DNA from: Clostridia bacterium
GTDB lineage: Bacteria > Bacillota > Clostridia > Oscillospirales > CAG-272
DNA length: 64,000 nucleotides
Direction of reading: 5' to 3'
Assembly: GCA_017420755.1 (NCBI GenBank)
Contig: JAFQOG010000044.1
Span: 1-64,000, forward strand
Below are positions 25,901 through 61,030 of this stretch, piece after piece. The notes beneath the pieces are model-generated. The model did no database searches and had not been told where the DNA came from. It was given only the letters and a program-made list of their open reading frames with translations. Every line of letters starts with the position of its first letter. Position 1 is the first letter of the stretch. The position numbers were made by a program, and so were the translations under genes.

Positions 25901-25915
25901 AATTAAAGGAGCTAT

Positions 25916-26008
25916 ATGCTAACTAAAAAGAATCCAATATTAACAGGCTTTCATCCAGACCCTAATAGGCTCCTTTGTGTAAAGGGAGCTGTCAGCATAG
26001 CTGACTGA
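25916..26008 (+). pseudogene. Truncated 5' remnant of a second GH43 gene
   Basis: An ATG with its own AAAGGAG site encodes MLTKKNPILTGFHPDP, clearly homologous to the start of the intact downstream gene (MLVRKNPVLPGFHPDP) but different in DNA and protein. Homology ends at the outer edge of the R1 repeat at 25968; the frame then runs into R1 and stops at TGA 26006-26008. So only about 17 codons of a diverged GH43 allele or paralogue remain. Confidence 0.85.
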
Positions 26009-26015
26009 GGGATTG
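25968..26015. repeat. R1 palindromic repeat between GH43 remnant and GH43 gene
   Basis: The outer hairpin GGCTCCTTTGTGTAAAGGGAGC (two arms of about 9 bp) is followed by the inner hairpin GTCAGC-ATA-GCTGAC and the end TGAGGGATTG. The outer edge abuts the gene remnant; the inner edge faces the intact GH43 gene. It is nearly identical to 57174-57221. Confidence 0.9.
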
Positions 26016-26030
26016 AGGAAAGGAGAAATT

Positions 26031-27641
26031 ATGTTAGTTAGAAAAAACCCCGTTTTACCGGGCTTTCATCCAGACCCTTGCATTTTAAGGGTAGGAAGCG
26101 ATTACTATCTTGCGACCTCAACCTTTCAATGGTTTGGAGGAGTGGAGCTATATCACTCTAAGGATTTAATAAATTGGGAGCAGCTGCCGTGCCCACTAAC
26201 AAGAAAAAGTCAGCTTGATTTGGAGGGATGTCCAAATTCGGGAGGAGTGTGGGCTCCGTGCCTTTCATATTCTGACGGAGTTTTTTACCTAATCTATACA
26301 AACGTGAAAAACTTCCACGGTATTTTTAAGGACACCCATAACTATCTTGTCACAACAACTGACCTTTATGGTGAGTGGAGTGAGCCAATTTATCTAAATT
26401 CCAGTGGCTTTGACCCATCGCTTTTCCACGACGATGATGGAAAGAAATATCTTGTCAATATGCGTTGGGACCATCGAATGGAGCATCACGATTTTGCTGG
26501 TATTTTAATGCAAGAATATGACCCTATGGCAAAAAAGCTTGTGGGAGAAATCAAAACGATATATAAGGGGACAGAAATAGGCGCGACAGAAGCGCCACAC
26601 CTATATAAAAAGGACGGCTACTATTATTTAATTGTTGCCGAGGGTGGCACAATGTATAACCACGGTGTGCGCTTAGCTCGCTCAAAAAGCATTTGGGGAG
26701 AGTACGAAAGCGACCCACAGCCGTTGCTTACAACAAGAAATAACCCCGAAAAATATATGCAAAGAACAGGTCACGCATCGTATATCGAGGCTGAAAATGG
26801 TCAAGGCTACCTCGCTTATCTTTGTGCAAGACCATTAAGAGAAAAAAAGGTAGTCGATTGGGCAGAGGGATGCTCAATTTTAGGGCGTGAAACCTGTATT
26901 GCTCCCGTAAAATGGGAAAACGGCTGGCTAAGGCTTGAAAATGGCGGAGAAGTACCACCAGAGGAATATTTTTCCAACCTTAAAGAGGTAAAATACGCAG
27001 AGAAGCCAGTGTGCGATAGCTTTAATACAGGCGTTTTGCCATTACATTATAAAACATTGCGCTCACCCTTATCCGACTTTGCAAATCTTAACGAGCGCGA
27101 GGGCTTTTTGCGCATTTATGGGCGCGAGGCAATCACCTCGTGCAACAAGCAAAGTATGGTTGCAAGAAGGCTTGATGCATTCAAGGCGGAAGCGACAACC
27201 GCGCTCGAATTTAGCCCCAAAACGCTACAAGAAATGGCAGGACTTACTGTATTTTACGATACCTACAACTTTTTCTATCTCTATATGTCACATAACGAGG
27301 AGATAAACGAAAACTGTCTTAGAATTATCGTTCGCGACAGCTTAAAATTCTATAATCCAATAGATAGTGGCAGAATTTTAATAGGAAAGAATGAAAAGGT
27401 GTGGCTACGCGCTAAGATAAATAGGCTAAATTTAGAATTTTACTATTCCTTAGATGGTGTTGATTATTTACCGATAGGTGGCTTACTTGATATGTCAAAT
27501 TTATGTGATGAGGCATATGGACTAATAGGTCACGAGGGGCATACAGGTACATTTATCGGTATGTGCTGTCAAGATTTGACTGGTCAAAAATCACACGCAG
27601 ACTTTGACTTTTTTGAATATAAAACAGAAGAAAACAGGTGA
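26031..27641 (+). CDS. GH43 family glycosidase (beta-xylosidase type)
   Basis: The protein has 536 residues. The five-bladed propeller holds the catalytic residues expected in GH43: Asp in GFHPDPC (base), Asp in GFDPSLFHD (pKa modulator) and Glu in TEAPHLY (acid). A C-terminal beta-sandwich domain (about 330-536) is like that of XynB-type beta-xylosidases. Known members act on xylo-oligosaccharides or arabinosyl side chains. There is no signal peptide. The ATG at 26031 has an AAAGGAG site. The gene lies 130 bp after the GH-D gene, with an R1 repeat and a remnant of another GH43 between, and 4 bp before the GH78 gene. Confidence 0.92.
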   Translation: MLVRKNPVLPGFHPDPCILRVGSDYYLATSTFQWFGGVELYHSKDLINWEQLPCPLTRKSQLDLEGCPNSGGVWAPCLSYSDGVFYLIYTNVKNFHGIFKDTHNYLVTTTDLYGEWSEPIYLNSSGFDPSLFHDDDGKKYLVNMRWDHRMEHHDFAGILMQEYDPMAKKLVGEIKTIYKGTEIGATEAPHLYKKDGYYYLIVAEGGTMYNHGVRLARSKSIWGEYESDPQPLLTTRNNPEKYMQRTGHASYIEAENGQGYLAYLCARPLREKKVVDWAEGCSILGRETCIAPVKWENGWLRLENGGEVPPEEYFSNLKEVKYAEKPVCDSFNTGVLPLHYKTLRSPLSDFANLNEREGFLRIYGREAITSCNKQSMVARRLDAFKAEATTALEFSPKTLQEMAGLTVFYDTYNFFYLYMSHNEEINENCLRIIVRDSLKFYNPIDSGRILIGKNEKVWLRAKINRLNLEFYYSLDGVDYLPIGGLLDMSNLCDEAYGLIGHEGHTGTFIGMCCQDLTGQKSHADFDFFEYKTEENR

Positions 27642-47640: not shown

Positions 47641-47687
47641 CAATCCCTCCGTCGCATTTAGCGACATATCCCTTTGCACAAGGGATG
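47641..47687. repeat. Variant R1 palindrome behind mnmE
   Basis: CAATCCCTC is followed by the hairpin GTCGC-ATTTA-GCGAC and the hairpin TCCCTTTGCACAAGGGA, the same order of parts as in R1 but with changed inner stem sequence. It abuts the mnmE stop codon. Confidence 0.7.
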
Positions 47688-47689
47688 TG

Positions 47690-52422: not shown

Positions 52423-52473
52423 CAATCCCTCCGCTTCGCAAAAGCTCAGCACCTCCCTTTACACAAAGGAGGC
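52423..52473. repeat. R1 palindromic repeat behind alaS
   Basis: The inner end CAATCCCTC (two bases after the alaS stop) is followed by a degenerate inner hairpin (GCTTCGCAAAAGC) and the outer hairpin CCTCCCTTTACACAAAGGAGG. The outer edge abuts the alaS 3' remnant. Confidence 0.82.
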
Positions 52474-54139: not shown

Positions 54140-55333
54140 ATGGAAAAGGTACTTAATGCGTGTCTCGACTTTTTAAAGAGCACGGGTGTAGGTCAAGCTA
54201 TCACAAATGGCGAATGGAAATGGATGATAATGATTCTTATCGCTTGTGTGCTTTGCTACCTTGCTATTGTTAAAAAATTCGAGCCGTTACTTCTTTTACC
54301 TATCGCAATAGGTATGTTGCTCACAAACTTGCCTGGCGCAGGGGTTTACCACGAGGAGCTATTCTCGGGTGGACATATCCATTGGGAAATGTTTATGCAA
54401 GATGGCTTTGCCGCGGGACTAATTGATATACTTTATCTCGGCGTTAAGCTCGGTATTTATCCTTGCTTAATCTTTATCGGTGTCGGCGCAATGACCGACT
54501 TTGGTCCACTTATCGCAAATCCAAAGAGCTTGTTCCTTGGTGCGGCGGCACAAATTGGTATTTTTGCTACATTTGCTGCGGCTATTGCATTCTTTGACCC
54601 GGCAGAGGCGGCTTCGATTGGTATTATCGGTGGCGCAGACGGTCCAACAGCTATCTTTGTCACATCTAAGTTAGCGCCTCATCTCCTTGGTCCTATTGCA
54701 GTAGCAGCTTACTCGTATATGGCGCTGGTTCCGGTAATTCAGCCGCCGATTATGAAGCTTCTAACAACCAAGAAGGAAAGAGCCATCAGAATGGACTCAC
54801 TCCGTCCAGTTTCAAAGAAGGCAAAGATTATTTTCCCAATAGTAATTATTGTATTCTGTGCACTCTTAGTTCCTGATGCAGTTGCACTTGTTGGTTGCTT
54901 GATGTTTGGTAACCTACTACGCGAATGTGGTGTTGCTGAGCGTCTATCTAAGACTGTTCAAAACGAGCTTATGAATATAGTAACAATATTCTTAGGCGTT
55001 TCAGTTGGTGCAACAGCAACAGCAGCAACCTTCCTCTCACTAAAGACAATCCTTATTATTGTAATGGGTGTTATCGCATTTGGTGTTGCGACAGCAAGTG
55101 GCGTTCTCATTGCAAAGCTAATGAACCTATTCTTGCCAAAGGGCAAGAAAATCAACCCACTTATTGGTTCAGCAGGCGTTTCTGCAGTTCCAATGGCGGC
55201 GCGTGTTTCACAAAAGGTTGGACAAGAGGCAGATCCTGGCAACTTCCTCCTTATGCACGCAATGGGTCCAAACGTTGCAGGCGTTATCGGCTCTGCAATT
55301 GCGGCGGGTGTGCTTATTTCACTCGTAGGTTAA
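54140..55333 (+). CDS. oadB: Sodium-translocating decarboxylase beta subunit
   Basis: The protein has 397 residues with about ten membrane segments. Family blocks are [27 protein letters not shown] (functional Asp of the sodium path), [17 protein letters not shown] and [13 protein letters not shown]. OadB decarboxylates carboxybiotin and exports sodium ions, building a sodium gradient. The same family includes the methylmalonyl-CoA and glutaconyl-CoA pumps; OadA in the same cluster points to oxaloacetate. An AGGAGG site precedes the ATG. An R3 repeat separates it from oadA. Confidence 0.94.
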
Positions 55334-55340
55334 AATCCAC

Positions 55341-55542
55341 AGGGTAACACATTAAGGCATAAGCATAAACCACACAGAAACATAAAATAACGCAAAGCGT
55401 TAATTGTTTGAGATAAAATAATGTTGAAAAACTTCGTTTTTCTTCTTAATTGTGGTTTATTATCGTCGTTTAATGAACTCTCGACGTACAAAGTACGCCT
55501 TCGGTCGCAAACAACGATTTCTGCTCTTAATCTGTCAACCCT
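55341..55542. repeat. R3 repeat, copy C (oadB-oadA intergenic)
   Basis: Outer ends AGGGTAACACATTAAGGCA and TGCTCTTAATCTGTCAACCCT are imperfect inverted repeats. A second stem is ATAAACCACA / GTGGTTTAT. Inside are the hairpins AACGCAAAGCGTT and GAAAAACTTCGTTTTTC. A third stem ATCGTCGTTT / AAACAACGAT encloses the core CTCGACGTACAAAGTACGCC, which matches copies A and B. It has no coding content. Confidence 0.7.
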
Positions 55543-55564
55543 AATATAAACGAAAGGTAATAAA

Positions 55565-56962
55565 ATGGCTAAAAAAGTTTTAATTACAGATACAATACTT
55601 CGCGATGCACATCAATCTCAAGCTGCTACCAGAATGAGAATTGAGGATATGCTCCCAGCTTGTAAGGCGCTTGACGAGGCAGGCTATTGGTCGCTCGAGT
55701 GCTGGGGTGGAGCAACATTTGACTCATGTATGCGTTTTCTTGGTGAAGACCCATGGGAAAGATTACGTGCGCTTCGTCGCGCGATGCCAAATACAAGACT
55801 CCAAATGCTTCTTCGTGGTCAAAACCTTTTAGGCTACAAGCACTATGCTGACGACGTTGTTGAGGAGTTTGTTAAGAAATCAATCGAAAACGGTATCAAT
55901 GTTGTTCGTATCTTTGACGCACTAAACGATGTTAGAAACATCGAGGCTGCAATGAAGGCAACAAAGAAATATGGTGGACACGTTGAGGCGGCTATTTCTT
56001 ATACAGAAAGCCCAGTTCACAATCTTGAATACTTTGTTAAGCTCGCAAAGGAGCTTGAAAACAGAGGTGCTGACACCATCTGCGTTAAGGATATGGCTAA
56101 CTTGCTTTTACCTTACGACGCATACGAATTGGTTAAGGCATTAAAGAAGGAAATAAAGGTTCCAATTCACCTTCATACCCACAATACAACCGGTACAGGT
56201 GATATGACATACCTAATGGCAATTCAAGCTGGCGTTGACATTATCGACACTGCCTTGTCCCCACTTGCAAATGGTACATCACAGCCATCAACCGAGGCTA
56301 TGGTTGCTACCCTCCAAGGCACAGAGTACGACACCGGAATTGATTTAAATAAGCTTTCCGATGTTGCTGCGCACTTCCGTGAGGTTGCGAAAAAGCTCAA
56401 GGAGCAAGGCTCACTTGACCCTAAGGTATTAAATGTTGACCCTAACACACTTCTATACCAAGTACCAGGTGGAATGCTTTCAAACCTTATATCACAATTA
56501 AAGCAGGCTAAGGCAGAGGATAAGTATTACGAGGTGCTTGCCGAGGTTCCAAGAGTTAGAAAGGACTTCGGTTACCCACCACTTGTAACTCCTACAAGCC
56601 AAATTGTTGGCTCACAGGCTGTGCTTAATGTTCTTTCAGGCGAGCGCTATAAGATGGTAACTAAGGAATCCAAGGGACTTTTGAAGGGCGAATACGGCCG
56701 TGTTCCTGGTGAGGTTAACGAAGAGGTTAGAAGGAAGGCAATAGGTGACGATGAAATTATCGAGTGCCGTCCCGCTGACTTAATCGCCCCTGAGCTTGAA
56801 AAGTATAGAGAAGAAGCAAAGGACTTAGCAAAATGCGACGAGGACGTATTATCATACGCACTCTTCCCACAGGTTGCAACAAAGTTCCTTAGCGAAAGAA
56901 ACAAGCCAAAGGCTGACCCAAATGCAGTACGTGAGCTTTTTGTTGAAGACTTAGGAAACTAA
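55565..56962 (+). CDS. oadA: Oxaloacetate decarboxylase alpha subunit (carboxyltransferase)
   Basis: The protein has 465 residues. The HMGL-like TIM barrel starts with ITDTILRDAHQSQAATRM and has metal ligands in DTILRDAHQ and HLHTHNTTGTG, plus CWGGATFD and the carboxylated-Lys region ICVKDMANLL. The C-terminal conserved carboxylase domain follows (FGYPPLVTPTSQIVGSQAV). The usual biotinyl domain is absent; the separate carrier at 53768 provides it. The enzyme transfers CO2 from oxaloacetate to biotin, giving pyruvate. It is the last gene of the operon and is followed by a terminator. Confidence 0.95.
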   Translation: MAKKVLITDTILRDAHQSQAATRMRIEDMLPACKALDEAGYWSLECWGGATFDSCMRFLGEDPWERLRALRRAMPNTRLQMLLRGQNLLGYKHYADDVVEEFVKKSIENGINVVRIFDALNDVRNIEAAMKATKKYGGHVEAAISYTESPVHNLEYFVKLAKELENRGADTICVKDMANLLLPYDAYELVKALKKEIKVPIHLHTHNTTGTGDMTYLMAIQAGVDIIDTALSPLANGTSQPSTEAMVATLQGTEYDTGIDLNKLSDVAAHFREVAKKLKEQGSLDPKVLNVDPNTLLYQVPGGMLSNLISQLKQAKAEDKYYEVLAEVPRVRKDFGYPPLVTPTSQIVGSQAVLNVLSGERYKMVTKESKGLLKGEYGRVPGEVNEEVRRKAIGDDEIIECRPADLIAPELEKYREEAKDLAKCDEDVLSYALFPQVATKFLSERNKPKADPNAVRELFVEDLGN

Positions 56963-56969
56963 TAAAAAT

Positions 56970-56997
56970 AAAAGACACCCAAAAGGGTGTCTTTTTT
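56970..56997 (+). terminator. Terminator of the oad operon
   Basis: AAAGACACCC-AAAA-GGGTGTCTTTTTT. Confidence 0.93.
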
Positions 56998-57019
56998 ATA
57001 TAATAATTTGTGCGCACAG

Positions 57020-57039
57020 TCGGGGGCCTTCGCCCTTAC
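57020..57039. repeat. Possible degenerate REP palindrome behind nadE
   Basis: TCGGGGGCCTTCGCCCTTAC, followed by AGAAAT, recalls the R2 units in the RAYT gene (CGGG...CCCCTACGGAAAT). The similarity is weak. Confidence 0.3.
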
Positions 57040-57047
57040 AGAAATTG

Positions 57048-57173
57048 TTATTTGTTTTCATCAAGCTCCTCTAAAAAGGCCTTATAAGAAAAATCGCTGA
57101 CCATATCAAAATCAGATTTTGAAAGGGAAACCGAACCGATTCGTACACCATCAGGAGAGCAAGAGCGCTTTAT
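57048..57173 (-). pseudogene. Left-over original 3' end of nadE
   Basis: Read on the minus strand this encodes IKRSCSPDGV...KAFLEELDENK-stop, the natural end of NadE (stop at 57050-57048). It begins exactly at the outer edge of the R1 copy at 57174. Its last part (57060-57163) matches the working gene at 57620-57723 in 103 of 104 bases. The first four codons differ, partly by synonymous changes (AAG/AAA, CGC/AGA). Confidence 0.88.
57060..57163. repeat. 104-bp direct repeat, left copy (nadE 3' end)
   Basis: It matches 57620-57723 with a single difference (G at 57078, A at 57638). The offset is exactly 560 bp. The two copies flank the DUF559 cassette. Confidence 0.95.
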
Positions 57174-57221
57174 GGCTCCTTTGTGCAAAGGGAGCTGTCA
57201 GCGTAGCTGACTGAGGGATTG
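57174..57221. repeat. R1 repeat, left boundary of the DUF559 cassette
   Basis: The outer hairpin (GGCTCCTTTGTGC with AAAGGGAGC), the inner hairpin GTCAGC-GTA-GCTGAC and the end TGAGGGATTG differ from the copy at 25968 by only two bases. Confidence 0.95.
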
Positions 57222-57566
57222 CTGAACCAACGAGTCAATGTGCCTACAAATTGCATTGAAGTTGTGCCAAATTTCGCGGTTTGGTATCCTTATAACTTGT
57301 ATATTGTACTTTGAAAGCTCAATATCGCGAGTTGCATCGGCTTTTGCATTTTCTTCTTCGCCGTGCTGCGAGCCGTCAAGCTCTATAACAAGCTTTGCTT
57401 TTGCACAGTAAAAATCTACAATGTACCCATCTATTATTTTTTGTCGAATAAATCTTACAGGATAGGTTCGTAAAAAATCATACCATAAGTGCTTTTCTTC
57501 GTCGGTCATGTTTTTGCGTAGTTCTTTTGCAAGAGGAACAATAAACTTGTTGTGACGACCACTCAC
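57198..57566 (-). CDS. DUF559 (Vsr-like, PD-(D/E)xK) endonuclease-domain protein
   Basis: The protein has 122 residues when started at the GTG at 57566, which lies 6 bp after GGAGGG, the conserved inner end of the right R1. The TGA of nadE overlaps this start (GTGA), so translation may be coupled. Family blocks are KELRKNMTDEEKHLWYDFL, VRFIRQKIIDGYIVDFYC and LVIELDGSQHGEEE, with Asp and Glu-x-Asp residues placed as in the very-short-patch-repair-like nuclease fold. The C-terminus QQSLSQLR and the stop are encoded by the left R1. DUF559 proteins are presumed DNA nucleases; a role in spreading the R1 element is inferred. Confidence 0.85.
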   Translation of the reverse strand: MSGRHNKFIVPLAKELRKNMTDEEKHLWYDFLRTYPVRFIRQKIIDGYIVDFYCAKAKLVIELDGSQHGEEENAKADATRDIELSKYNIQVIRIPNREIWHNFNAICRHIDSLVQQSLSQLR

Positions 57567-59470
57567 TTCAATCCCTCCACCACAAGTGGTCCCCCTCCCT
57601 TTGCACAAGGGAGGCTGGAATCAAGCTCCTCTAAAAAAGCCTTATAAGAAAAATCGCTGACCATATCAAAATCAGATTTTGAAAGGGAAACCGAACCGAT
57701 TCGTACACCATCAGGAGAGCAAGCTCTTTTGAATTGCTGGGTAAAGAATCTTTTTATAAATACGGTTAGCCATTTATAAATTGTTTTTTCGCTATATTTG
57801 CCGTCAAAGGCATAGAGCGCTAAGCGATAAATTTTAGATGGAGCAAATTTTTTGCCAACAAAATTATAAATGAAGAAATCGTGCAGCTCATAAGGGCCAA
57901 CTATATCCTCTGTCTTTTGCTCAATCTCGCCGTTTTCCTTGGCAGGCAAAAGCTCAGGAGAAACCGGTGTATCTAAAATATCCAAAAGAATATTCTTTAC
58001 GTTTTCCTCTGTGTTTTGGGCAAAATGTGCCACCACGTGTCTAATTAACGTTTTTGGAAGCGCTGAATTTACATTGTACATTGACATATGGTCGCCATTA
58101 TAGGTTGACCAGCCAAGCGCAACCTCGGAAAGGTCGCCTGTGCCGACAACAAGGGCGCCCAAGGAGTTAGCCACGTCCATAAGAATTTGCGTGCGCTCTC
58201 TTGCTTGTGCATTTTCATAAACGACATTGTGGTTCTCCTCGTCGTGACCAATGTCCTTGAAGTGAACGCGAGTCGCTTCGAAAATATCAATTTCCTTAAG
58301 GGCGACACCAAGAGCTTTGCAAAGCTCAGTGGCATTTGACTTTGTACGATTAGTTGTGCCAAAGCAGGGCATAGTAATAGCAGTAATTTTGTTTCTGTCC
58401 CAGCCGAGATAATCGGCACATTTAACGCATACTAAAAGTGCAAGGGTGGAGTCAAGCCCACCGGAAATTCCAAGCACCATACCGCTTGAATAGGATGCAG
58501 TCAGTCTTTTGGCAAGGGAGCGTGACTGCATTGTGAGAATTTTCTCACATCTATTTGCTAATTCTTCCTTGCCCTTCGGAAAAAAAGGATGGCTTGACAC
58601 CTTTCGAGTTAAGGATGTTTTTGTTAATTCAAGCTTGAAATTGACAGAGGTTAAGGCTGGGTTAGACTCATACTTTGAAAGTCTTTTGCTCGCCAAGTAG
58701 TTTACATCAATTTCAGACACACAGTCGCCTGTTTTTGACTGAAAAGGCTTACTTTCTGCCAAAATTTCTCCATTTTCCACAATCAAATTGTGGCTTGAGT
58801 ATATATTTTTTGAGGTTGATTCAGTTTCGCTTGGATTAGAAACAATATAAGCGGAAGCCGTTGCGTAGGATTTGGAAGTGAACGAGGCACGTCTCATTTC
58901 GTCGCTTGTAACAAGCTCAAAGGAAGAAGAGGGGTTAACTATAACAGTTGCGCCAAGCTCGGAGAGGAAAAAGCCCTTTGGCGATGGGGTCGAAACAGCA
59001 TCCCCGACAACAACACCAATTGTTAAGTTGGGCATATTGGAGGCAGAGAACAATATGTCCGTTCCAAGAGGATATTTTTCACCATTCAAGGTGATGTAAT
59101 CCTTCAAAAACGGCATTTTGCCAATCTTCGGAACAACACCTAAAATCTCGCCTGATTTTATTGCAATAGCACAGGAATATACTGTTCCGCTATATGAAAG
59201 AGGTGCACCAACAAAAACCAAAACATCGCTATCCTTAGTTGCGAATTTGATGTTTGAAAGCTCCTTTTCGCAAGCGCTTAATATAACGCTGTTATTTGAC
59301 ATATCTCCAATGGTGACGCCGGTTAAAGAAAGCTCTGGCAGAACAAGAATTTTTACACCCTCGCCCTCGGCTTTTTTTATTTCCTTTATAATTTCCGATT
59401 TGTTAAAGGCGACATTTCCTACCTCAATGCTTGGGGAAACGGCCTTAACCTTGATAAATCCGTCCTTCAT
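57563..59470 (-). CDS. nadE: NAD+ synthase with an N-terminal nitrilase-type domain, 3' end altered by insertion
   Basis: The protein has 635 residues. Residues about 1-270 are a carbon-nitrogen hydrolase domain; about 290-620 are the synthetase domain with the ATP loop LGISGGLDSTLALLV. It makes NAD+ from deamido-NAD+. In the amidase triad the Glu (LPELSLTG) and Lys (VVPKIGK) can be placed, but the Cys expected in an ICEDxW motif is absent: the segment reads IGVVVGDAVSTPSP. So glutamine use is doubtful. The last 18 residues, SSLPCAKGGGPLVVEGLK, come from the inserted R1; the natural end (DENK) lies stranded downstream. It is divergent from pncB, another NAD pathway gene. Confidence 0.9.
   Translation of the reverse strand: MKDGFIKVKAVSPSIEVGNVAFNKSEIIKEIKKAEGEGVKILVLPELSLTGVTIGDMSNNSVILSACEKELSNIKFATKDSDVLVFVGAPLSYSGTVYSCAIAIKSGEILGVVPKIGKMPFLKDYITLNGEKYPLGTDILFSASNMPNLTIGVVVGDAVSTPSPKGFFLSELGATVIVNPSSSFELVTSDEMRRASFTSKSYATASAYIVSNPSETESTSKNIYSSHNLIVENGEILAESKPFQSKTGDCVSEIDVNYLASKRLSKYESNPALTSVNFKLELTKTSLTRKVSSHPFFPKGKEELANRCEKILTMQSRSLAKRLTASYSSGMVLGISGGLDSTLALLVCVKCADYLGWDRNKITAITMPCFGTTNRTKSNATELCKALGVALKEIDIFEATRVHFKDIGHDEENHNVVYENAQARERTQILMDVANSLGALVVGTGDLSEVALGWSTYNGDHMSMYNVNSALPKTLIRHVVAHFAQNTEENVKNILLDILDTPVSPELLPAKENGEIEQKTEDIVGPYELHDFFIYNFVGKKFAPSKIYRLALYAFDGKYSEKTIYKWLTVFIKRFFTQQFKRACSPDGVRIGSVSLSKSDFDMVSDFSYKAFLEELDSSLPCAKGGGPLVVEGLK
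57569..57616. repeat. R1 repeat, right boundary of the DUF559 cassette
   Basis: CAATCCCTC, an inner hairpin (ACCAC-AA-GTGGT) and the outer hairpin CTCCCTTTGCACAAGGGAG, then GCT. It is inverted relative to 57174-57221. It encodes the novel C-terminus of NadE and the ribosome binding site of the DUF559 gene. Confidence 0.9.
57620..57723. repeat. 104-bp direct repeat, right copy (within nadE)
   Basis: It matches 57060-57163 in 103 of 104 bases and lies within the reading frame of nadE. Confidence 0.95.
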
Positions 59471-59575
59471 ACTTCCTCCAATTTTAAAAAAGTACTTGAA
59501 TTTTCATTTCATTTACTTTATTATATAATTATATTAGCGAAATTTCAACAAAAATCTTTAAAAGGGAGATTTTTT

Positions 59576-61030
59576 ATGAATATTAGTGAAAGAAAGCTGA
59601 CACTTCTTTGCGATTTTTACGAGCTAACAATGGCTCGTGGCTATTTCAATAGTGAAATCAAAAACAAAATTGCATACTTCGATGTTTTCTTCCGTCGCGT
59701 TCCTGATGGTGGTGGATATGCAATCGCTGCCGGACTTGAAAGTGTAATTGAATATATAAAATCCTTGAAATTTGAGGATAGCGATATTGAATATCTCCGC
59801 TCGAAGGGTATATTTGACGAGGAATTTCTATCTTATTTGAAGGGCTTTTCCTTTACTGGCGATATTTGGGCAGTGCCTGAGGGTACGGTTGTTTTTCCAA
59901 ACGAGCCCATTATGATTGTTCGCGCCCCTTTGGTTGAGGCGCAGTTTATCGAAACCTTTGTGCTTTTGGCACTCAACCACCAAAGCCTGATTGCAACCAA
60001 GGCATCGCGCATTGTAAGAGCGGCACAGGAAAGAGCCGTTTCCGAGTTTGGCGCTCGTCGTGCGCATGGAGCAGATGCATCCGTTTATGGCGCACGTGCT
60101 GCATATATTGGTGGTGTTAATTCAACCTCGTGCGTTCTTGCCGACAAAATGTTTGGCGTGCCAGCGGGGGGAACAATGGCGCACTCTTGGGTTCAAATGT
60201 TTGATACCGAATATGAGGCATTTGAAACATATTGTAGGCTATACCCAAAGGCACCAACGCTTTTGGTTGACACATATGATGTATTAAAAAGTGGAGTTCC
60301 GAACGCAATAAAGGCTTTTAAGGCAGCTTTAAGTGAAGAAGAACAGAAAAGCTGTGCAATCAGAATAGATTCCGGCGACCTTACGTACCTATCTAAAAAG
60401 GCGAGAAAAATGCTTGACCAAGCAGGGCTTACTCACTGTAAAATAGTTGCATCAAATGCGCTTGATGAGTATCTAATTCGCGACTTACTTTTACAGGGCG
60501 CGCCGATTGACGTTTTTGGCGTTGGTGAACGACTTATAACTGCGAAAAGCGAGCCTGTTTTTGGCGGGGTTTATAAATTGACTGCTATCGAGGACGAAAA
60601 TGGCAACATAACTCCAAAAATTAAGATTAGTGAAAATGCAATAAAGATAACAACACCGAATTTTAAAAATCTTTATCGCTTCTATTCGAAGGAAACAGGC
60701 AAGGCAGAGGCGGATTTGTTAACCGTTTACGACGAGGAAATAAACGAAAACGAGCCATATGAGCTTTTCGACCCTAACCACGTGTGGAAAAGAAAGACTA
60801 TGGAAAATTACACCTTGCGCAAGCTATTGGTTCCTGTTTTTAAAAATGGTGAGTGCGTTTACCAAACACCTACCGCTATGGAAATAAGAAGGAATTGCCA
60901 AAACGAGCTTTTTACAATGTGGGATGAGGTTTTGCGCTTTGAAAACCCACACAACTATTATGTTGACCTTTCAGAAAGGCTGTGGCAAGAGAAAAATGCG
61001 CTTCTAAAAAGTGCAAAAAGCAAGAGGTAA
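59576..61030 (+). CDS. pncB: Nicotinate phosphoribosyltransferase
   Basis: The protein has 484 residues. It joins nicotinate and PRPP to nicotinate mononucleotide, the salvage entry to NAD. Typical blocks are TLLCDFYELTMARGYF at the N-terminus, FRRVPDGGGYAIAAGLE, EFGARRAHG (with the phosphorylatable His region), GGVNSTSCVLADKMFGVPAGGTMAHSWV, and RIDSGDLTYLSKKARKML. The site AAAGGGAG precedes the ATG. It is divergent from nadE, so two steps of NAD salvage share one intergenic region. Confidence 0.95.
   Translation: MNISERKLTLLCDFYELTMARGYFNSEIKNKIAYFDVFFRRVPDGGGYAIAAGLESVIEYIKSLKFEDSDIEYLRSKGIFDEEFLSYLKGFSFTGDIWAVPEGTVVFPNEPIMIVRAPLVEAQFIETFVLLALNHQSLIATKASRIVRAAQERAVSEFGARRAHGADASVYGARAAYIGGVNSTSCVLADKMFGVPAGGTMAHSWVQMFDTEYEAFETYCRLYPKAPTLLVDTYDVLKSGVPNAIKAFKAALSEEEQKSCAIRIDSGDLTYLSKKARKMLDQAGLTHCKIVASNALDEYLIRDLLLQGAPIDVFGVGERLITAKSEPVFGGVYKLTAIEDENGNITPKIKISENAIKITTPNFKNLYRFYSKETGKAEADLLTVYDEEINENEPYELFDPNHVWKRKTMENYTLRKLLVPVFKNGECVYQTPTAMEIRRNCQNELFTMWDEVLRFENPHNYYVDLSERLWQEKNALLKSAKSKR

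Follow-up and report, generated by a model that had tools for sequence, protein, structure and literature searches.

A DUF559 nuclease gene between two-hairpin repeats at the end of nadE: a likely member of a very small mobile-element family in Clostridia

How did the gene nadE come to carry its 3′ end twice, with a small nuclease gene standing between the two copies? The locus lies in a 64,000-nt stretch of a Clostridia bacterium genome (assembly GCA_017420755.1, contig JAFQOG010000044.1, positions 1 to 64,000; hereafter the window), where a DUF559 gene is bounded by inverted copies of a repeat, R1, which is about 48 bp long and consists of two hairpins and a purine-rich tail. We consider it likely that this unit is a copy of a very small mobile-element family, in which a Vsr-like DUF559 nuclease lies between two-hairpin R1 ends and which inserts at gene ends. 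Below, G000 is the genome of the window, while other G and L numbers denote genomes and loci of relatives.

The nadE locus

The locus comprises the following features.

57563..59470, minus strand: nadE (NAD+ synthase; NF002730, 674 bits over residues 2-619), a 635-aa frame whose final codons come from the R1 of the element
57620..57723, minus strand: copy 1 of the nadE 3′ end, inside the working gene (from direct-repeat comparison)
57569..57615, minus strand: R1 at the left (5′) end of the element, with two hairpins and a GGAGGG tail (hairpin 2 read by eye)
57174-57615: the DUF559/R1 unit, bounded by inverted repeats and holding a single gene, 442 bp
57198..57566, minus strand: DUF559 (Vsr-like PD-(D/E)XK) nuclease gene, 122 codons from GTG, with its stop within the right R1
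57174..57221, plus strand: R1 at the right (3′) end, inverted, coding for the DUF559 C-terminus QSLSQLR-stop
57164..57173, minus strand: right junction, a few filler bases followed by copy-2 codons
57048..57163, minus strand: copy 2 of the nadE 3′ end (57060-57163) with the old stop, ELDENK-stop, displaced past the element

The first-pass annotation, made from the letters of the window, had drawn much of this layout. Its unit between inverted R1s stands, at 442 bp rather than 443, with the inverted arms at 57176-57194 and 57595-57613. As it had also described, the nuclease gene borrows both of its ends from the repeats: GGAGGG in the left R1 lies six bases ahead of the DUF559 GTG (57566), which is ribosome-binding distance, and the last codons and TGA (57198-57200) are supplied by the right R1. 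From its ATG at 59470, nadE does read into the unit, its frame staying open to 57563 with an R1-encoded C-terminal tail, and the old ELDENK-stop (57048) is indeed displaced behind a direct repeat (57060-57163 and 57620-57723) of 104 nt, 103/104 identical (99%). Four codons just past the repeat are diverged as reported, but only two of the changes are synonymous (K, R), the others being F/I and A/S. The copy-2 codons at the right junction match those of G004, and also those of G001 and G010, barring one base in G010.

Gene-end duplications accompany R1

Flanking direct repeats scoring at least 30 occur at 21 of 66 DUF559 loci, compared with 0/377 same-locus controls and 5/600 cross-locus pairs, which excludes chance. 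At least four of the 21 (L043, L044, L063, and L064) are wholly or mainly copies of R1, not host DNA, and three (L002, L004, and L005) are one nadE site in three species. We measured junctions in 29 loci chosen for showing repeats, six of which gave no clear host duplication. The 23 curated duplications span 25-109 nt, with 21 of them at 38-109 nt. The duplication ends 0-4 nt from the left end of the element in 15/23 cases, and filler at the right end amounts to 3-7 bases in 13/23 and 0-1 in six. Among the genes whose ends are duplicated, Pfam identifies a histidine kinase (L042), dnaJ (L068), a pfkB-type kinase (L061), a xylose-isomerase-like gene (L037), and nadA; it gives no match for the host gene of a second G000 element. 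Thus, the self-contained unit with paired inverted ends recurs at unrelated genes (nadE, the histidine kinase, dnaJ, the pfkB-type kinase, and the Pfam-less gene), as the first-pass annotation had proposed.

Duplication of the gene end goes with the presence of R1. We judged 63 loci of three genes, namely nadA, nadE, and the second G000 host gene, with a further 8 set aside. The gene end is duplicated in 10 of the 13 loci where R1 stands at it and in none of the 50 where R1 is absent (p = 2e-9). By our reading, these 10 loci go back to about six independent insertions, some being common to sister species. R1 starts 2-22 nt past the stop or, in nadE of three species, within the frame. Up to 400 nt downstream, the loci listed show otherwise only more R1s of the same clusters (L359 and L363).

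A nuclease gene need not be present. In G012 and G010, nadA is followed past its stop by a lone R1. G018 has one at its nadE, from a different family, facing the other way and accompanied by a duplication of its own. At the second host gene, 7/24 loci have R1s at the stop codon that differ in family and orientation. Single R1s that lack the gene thus occupy sites and go with duplications.

It has to be asked whether the long duplications arose later, by slippage or by hairpin-provoked tandem duplication around R1, and not upon insertion. The tandem arrays of R1 plus flank at L198, L199, and L072 would fit such a process. Yet none of the 50 gene ends without R1 is duplicated, R1 stands between the copies, and in most curated cases only 0-4 nt lie between the left copy and the element. 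We therefore regard slippage as an improbable source of the duplications.

In loci fetched for R1, 20/45 of the lone and array R1s that have a facing stop lie no more than 25 nt from it, compared with 114/865 random intergenic positions (p = 8e-7). Short inverted R1 pairs show no such enrichment (2/16 of those that have a facing stop, p = 1.0) and may therefore follow another route. Of 55 elements that could be assessed, 41 follow a gene that runs in their own direction, three are divergent, and 11 are neither (p = 1.6e-9).

R1 is linked to one DUF559 subfamily

Searches of relatives (genus, family, and order) and of genome contigs yielded 89 distinct DUF559 places. The protein is present in 20/29 genomes of the genus, where most of the listed loci have, by eye, hairpin repeats of several sequence families around the gene. 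With the R1 profile, 50/89 places have both ends, 22 have a single end, and 17 have neither. Protein distances correlate with end distances (Mantel r = 0.63 and 0.63), as left-end distances do with right-end distances (0.71; p = 2e-4). A terminal-inverted-repeat score of 14 or more is reached at 51/85 loci, compared with 0/154 neutral stretches and 33/300 mismatched pairings.

The link does not extend to DUF559 as a whole. In a phylum-wide sample, 23/299 genomes have a DUF559 protein, and the 19 loci matching at less than 65 bits have terminal-repeat scores of 7-10, like neutral DNA (maximum 11). Of three stronger relatives in this sample, L231 scores 19, and L230 and L251 only 12 and 11, though both have R1-like sequence by eye. 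Because 17/89 places lack an end recognized by the R1 model and these 19 distant DUF559s lack terminal repeats, R1 pairing belongs to one subfamily and not to DUF559 in general. The observation that the first-pass annotation had held would refute a mobile unit, DUF559 genes without paired R1 ends in relatives, is thus borne out only in part.

At the genome level, R1 is present in 42/43 relatives with DUF559 and in 23/53 without (96 relatives; p = 2e-9, a value that, like our other p-values, overstates independence). The exception, G042, has its DUF559 within a 799-codon frame. The genomes are mostly metagenome-assembled as far as they are named, with one per species, and repeats often fall at contig ends; R1 counts, capped near 63 candidates per genome, are lower bounds.

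These counts bear on whether R1 is moved by another enzyme, either a Y1 transposase acting in trans or one not known, with DUF559 as a passenger caught between two R1s. The 23 genomes that have R1 and no detected DUF559 are as such a reading would expect, as are some DUF559 genes outside R1 pairs. Y1_Tnp, the transposase family tested, is however not associated with R1 in the same 96 relatives (21/30 versus 44/66 genomes, p = 0.82), and PF01797 (Y1_Tnp) was not found in G000 or in the R1-rich G003, G019, G024, and G067, all of them incomplete genomes. A RAYT/Y1 transposase as the mover is thus unsupported, as Y1_Tnp does not track R1. Moreover, protein and ends change together, the DUF559 gene draws its ribosome-binding site and stop from its ends, and we noticed no other gene inside inward R1 pairs when reading 40 R1-only loci by eye, with no dedicated scan. 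We consider transport by another enzyme unlikely.

One clade of DUF559 loci is arranged differently. In L066, L067, L069, L048, and L186 (from G004, G013, G015, and G063), the gene comes with a promoter-like region of its own and lacks a left R1, and an R1/R1′ pair overlaps its 3′ end, an arrangement reminiscent of RAYT genes beside REPINs. By eye, R1 pairs without a gene have a similar segment ahead of them in L210, L211, and L213.

DUF559 also occurs on viral contigs. Among IMG/VR records, L265 has R1-profile hits on both sides of the gene, L264 has weaker hits nearby, and L266 is R1-like by eye. Two human faecal phage records (L343 and L344) hold a DUF559 gene with weaker R1 hits nearby. 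Such contigs are a possible vehicle between species.

Structure of the R1 ends

In R1, hairpin 1 shows covariation, with two-sided changes at 5/8 pairs among 50 sequences, a figure biased by the fact that the sequences were gathered by requiring a stem. Hairpin 2 is absent from the consensus fold and was read by eye. Likewise by eye, it comes in three styles (GGTG..CGG, GGGGGACC..GGTGG, and GCTG..CTG) that swap between left and right ends, unlike hairpin 1 and the tail, which are mostly matched within one element. Of the 100 ends found by profile in 50 elements, 91 begin with GCC or GGC, the profile itself having been built from ends chosen by a G[CG]C pattern at DUF559-linked loci. A search of Rfam with positions 55000-60000 of the window returned no match over either R1 up to an E-value of 5, so R1 at the nadE locus was rejected as a known RNA family.

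R1 occurs alone, as short inverted pairs, and in arrays. In L198, L199, and L072, R1 and a fixed flank are repeated in tandem with a period of about 54-97 bp, in up to five copies. In L175, L181, L183, and L231, R1-like ends seem, by eye, to be reversed relative to DUF559, with hairpin 1 inside and the tail outside.

The DUF559 protein is probably an active nuclease

The protein of the element matches PF04480 at 94 bits. DUF559 and a sub-cutoff REase_MTES_1575 match are its only Pfam hits; Pfam recognizes neither a transposase domain nor an accessory DNA-binding domain in its 122 residues. Across 52 DUF559 sequences, E38, D65, E76, D78, and H82 are invariant and D91 is nearly so (numbering of a 136-aa frame), and the structure 3hrl, an “Endonuclease-Like Protein”, is matched at an E-value of 6e-11. 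On these two grounds, the protein is probably an active nuclease. Homing-endonuclease profiles match weakly (4.5e-4 and 3e-4; structure 3r3p at 0.27), and better matches are DpdF (1e-7, the best in a defense library) and an HNH-named phage family (8e-8).

Published notices of DUF559 are varied. According to PMC12907096, DUF559 proteins include Vsr-like nucleases, and one in Caulobacter is described as responsible for SOS response. The cultured bacterium Faecalibacterium prausnitzii A2-165 has a DUF559 gene upstream of mam (PMC8836110).

The nadE insertion is old and its gene-end copies were probably homogenized

The nadE arrangement is not deeply conserved, being present in only three of the five closest species. 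It recurs in G004 and G012, while G001 and G010 have an undivided nadE end; the empty sites that the first-pass annotation had suggested seeking in close relatives thus exist. In a nadE tree, G000 and G004 are sisters (99/98), with no settled order among G012, G001, and G010. G012 appears to share the same ancestral insertion, judging from its left junction, the right junction being eroded.

The near-identity of the two nadE ends could suggest a recent insertion. We reject this, as the arrangement is common to G004 and G012. Within genomes, the copies are alike at 103/104 positions in G000, at 98/98 over a contiguous tract and 96/104 over a wider stretch in G004, and at 97/106 in G012. Between G000 and G004, they are alike at only 84/104 (a between-genome comparison from which copy 1 of G012 is left out). 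Because the arrangement is shared and its copies are alike within genomes but not between them, the insertion is old. The contrast between 103/104 and 84/104 is best explained by gene conversion, which would have homogenized the copies after the insertion. Repeated insertion at the same place is a less probable alternative.

The first-pass annotation had taken the sharp switch from identical to diverged codons for recombination or gene conversion rather than a short target duplication. Gene conversion is retained here, but as a later event within an old insertion. The four-codon switch would be where homogenization stops, the far copy retaining G004-type codons and the working copy having changed. 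The 104-bp copy itself is better read as a long target duplication formed upon insertion than as the special repair copy proposed earlier.

Between G000 and G004, R1 is identical at 54/54 positions. Third codon positions agree at 71/80 in DUF559 codons 1-80, at 338/582 in nadE (p = 3e-8), and at 25/42 in the rest of DUF559. This reads as a recent exchange of R1 and DUF559 codons 1-80 between the two genomes, inside the old insertion. The DUF559 gene at this locus is under purifying selection (dN/dS 0.15 between G000 and G004); relative to G012, synonymous sites are saturated or nearly so.

Comparison with known systems

In fungal mitochondrial mORFs (Allomyces atp6; Glomus atp6, atp9, cox2, and nad3), an endonuclease likewise sits at the 3′ end of a gene, with the C-terminus present twice and the old end displaced (PMC3630166). 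The DUF559 gene could by analogy be a free-standing EDxHD/Vsr homing endonuclease, specific for the end of nadE and bringing a replacement 3′ end with it. The order of gene, endonuclease, and displaced C-terminus is the one that PMC3630166 describes, and the recent exchange tract between G000 and G004 is compatible with homing into a cognate allele. But the inserted C-terminus of the mORFs is diverged and read as foreign, whereas within G000 and G004 the two nadE ends hardly differ, unlike a foreign end beside a native one. The family also sits in many unrelated genes, it has two-hairpin terminal repeats, and its nuclease-less lone R1s go with the same duplications. Homing specific to nadE is accordingly an unlikely account of the locus, less probable than either slippage or another enzyme. 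EDxHD/Vsr-like homing endonucleases such as I-Bth0305I are distantly related in sequence and, by our residue assignment (E38, D65, H82, and D91), may have a similar catalytic order (the motif name is that of PMC3943268). By comparison, the protein here has 122 residues and no recognized accessory DNA-binding domain, and it is not confined to one allele.

It is very unlikely that the R1 hairpins are terminators or RNA-stability elements with an ordinary repair or defense nuclease lying among them, for although R1 sits at gene ends and has strong hairpins, DUF559 proteins include Vsr-like nucleases (PMC12907096), and DpdF is the best defense-library match, orthologous genes have empty and occupied sites with duplications, and independent R1 families stand at the same stop codon.

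The family operates much like REP/REPIN/RAYT systems (REPtrons), in which small palindromic repeats, alone or as inverted pairs, flank the gene of a small DNA-processing enzyme (PMC3733652). Here, too, the enzyme gene has the repeat on both sides, at 50/89 DUF559 places, and the repeat is also met singly and in inverted pairs. The enzyme here is, however, a DUF559 PD-(D/E)XK-type nuclease and not a Y1 HUH transposase, and gene ends are duplicated, mostly over 38-109 nt. REP tags are GTAG or CGTC (PMC3733652). R1 differs in having two hairpins and no such tag at its outer end: neither motif occurs in the first 6 nt of 100 ends, and in the last 6 nt GTAG occurs three times and CGTC never.

Miniature inverted-repeat transposable elements (MITEs) and insertion sequences also have terminal inverted repeats and non-autonomous derivatives. 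Insertion sequences usually duplicate a few bases at their target. No such short, fixed duplication, as expected of a DDE-type insertion sequence or MITE, is seen in the 23 curated cases, which run over 25-109 nt; no transposase domain is recognized, and lone single ends occupy sites.

In the literature searched, which covered few subscription papers or preprints, we found no description of DUF559 with terminal repeats and no title or abstract with the term DUF559. Six DNA motifs of 10-13 letters sought in print gave, among the matches listed, papers that by title look like unrelated chance hits. Since it lacks the Y1 enzyme and tags of RAYTs and the diverged C-terminus of mORFs, and since this literature holds no such description, the DUF559/R1 family, although widespread, is apparently undescribed and a new kind of element, whose movement we infer.

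A proposed mechanism and what weighs against it

We infer that DUF559 itself drives movement. A read-through transcript of the host gene would express DUF559 via the ribosome-binding tail of R1. The nuclease would recognize the R1 hairpins and then nick or cut, and an R1-ended copy would be joined where widely staggered breaks had opened a stop-codon region. Filling of the gaps would duplicate the gene end, and the upstream gene would therefore stay whole. Lone R1s and R1 pairs would be mobilized in trans. Later, gene conversion could act between the two gene-end copies, and recombination between them could excise the element cleanly.

Several observations weigh against this account. No movement has been observed, and the genomes include no same-species polymorphic site. 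Flanking repeats scoring at least 30 are missing from 45/66 DUF559 loci and occur at just 5/30 lone R1s, one of them an R1 copy (control, 10/643); of 38 scored clusters (from 40 loci fetched for R1 alone), three reach 20. No end fits the R1 model at 17/89 DUF559 places, only one does at 22, and 34/85 loci fall below 14 for terminal repeats, with L230 and L251 at only 12 and 11. R1 persists in 23/53 genomes without DUF559, and in one clade DUF559 lies beside an R1 pair, not between two ends. Lone R1s match the DUF559 ends of their own genome weakly (permutation p = 0.02; 52 R1s in 9 genomes, first 22 nt only). Finally, the genomes are related and the R1 model was built on DUF559-linked loci, which inflates the independence behind the p-values.

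R1 elsewhere in the window

Three other sites in the window carry R1 or R1-like sequence.

25968..26015, plus strand: lone R1 of 48 bp that holds no gene and is flanked by two direct copies, now diverged (46/60), of a glycoside hydrolase (GH) family 43 gene start
52423..52473, minus strand: R1 (16.9 bits) starting 2 nt past the alaS stop (52421), with no clear duplication
47641..47689, minus strand: R1-like sequence beginning immediately past the mnmE stop (47690), detected with a fuzzy pattern alone and missed by the profile at 12 bits

The GH43 gene-start copies lie at about 25905-25963 and 26019-26078, each with a ribosome-binding site and ATG. Since the downstream copy in 25905-26078 belongs to an open GH43 gene, the 5′ end of a gene can also survive R1 insertion.

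Implications

On balance, we lean toward a class of self-mobile DNA of about 0.44 kb built on a Vsr-like (DUF559) nuclease, which would recognize two-hairpin ends, also move lone 48-bp ends in trans, and target stop-codon regions, with long duplications that would leave the invaded gene intact and provide the element with its transcription. To our knowledge, about 0.44 kb would perhaps make it the smallest autonomous element. A unit of about 440 bp would also be easily reconstituted in vitro. Long, variable duplications with filler bases would suggest that joining proceeds by a chemistry that differs from the one used by known transposases.

Most DUF559 proteins, a widespread group, are labeled by their domain alone. 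If one DUF559 subfamily transposes, a nuclease fold would be added to the short list of DNA-moving enzymes. The same finding, if true, would account for abundant unnamed hairpin repeats in gut Clostridia and would show how DNA can enter the end of a working gene without breaking it.

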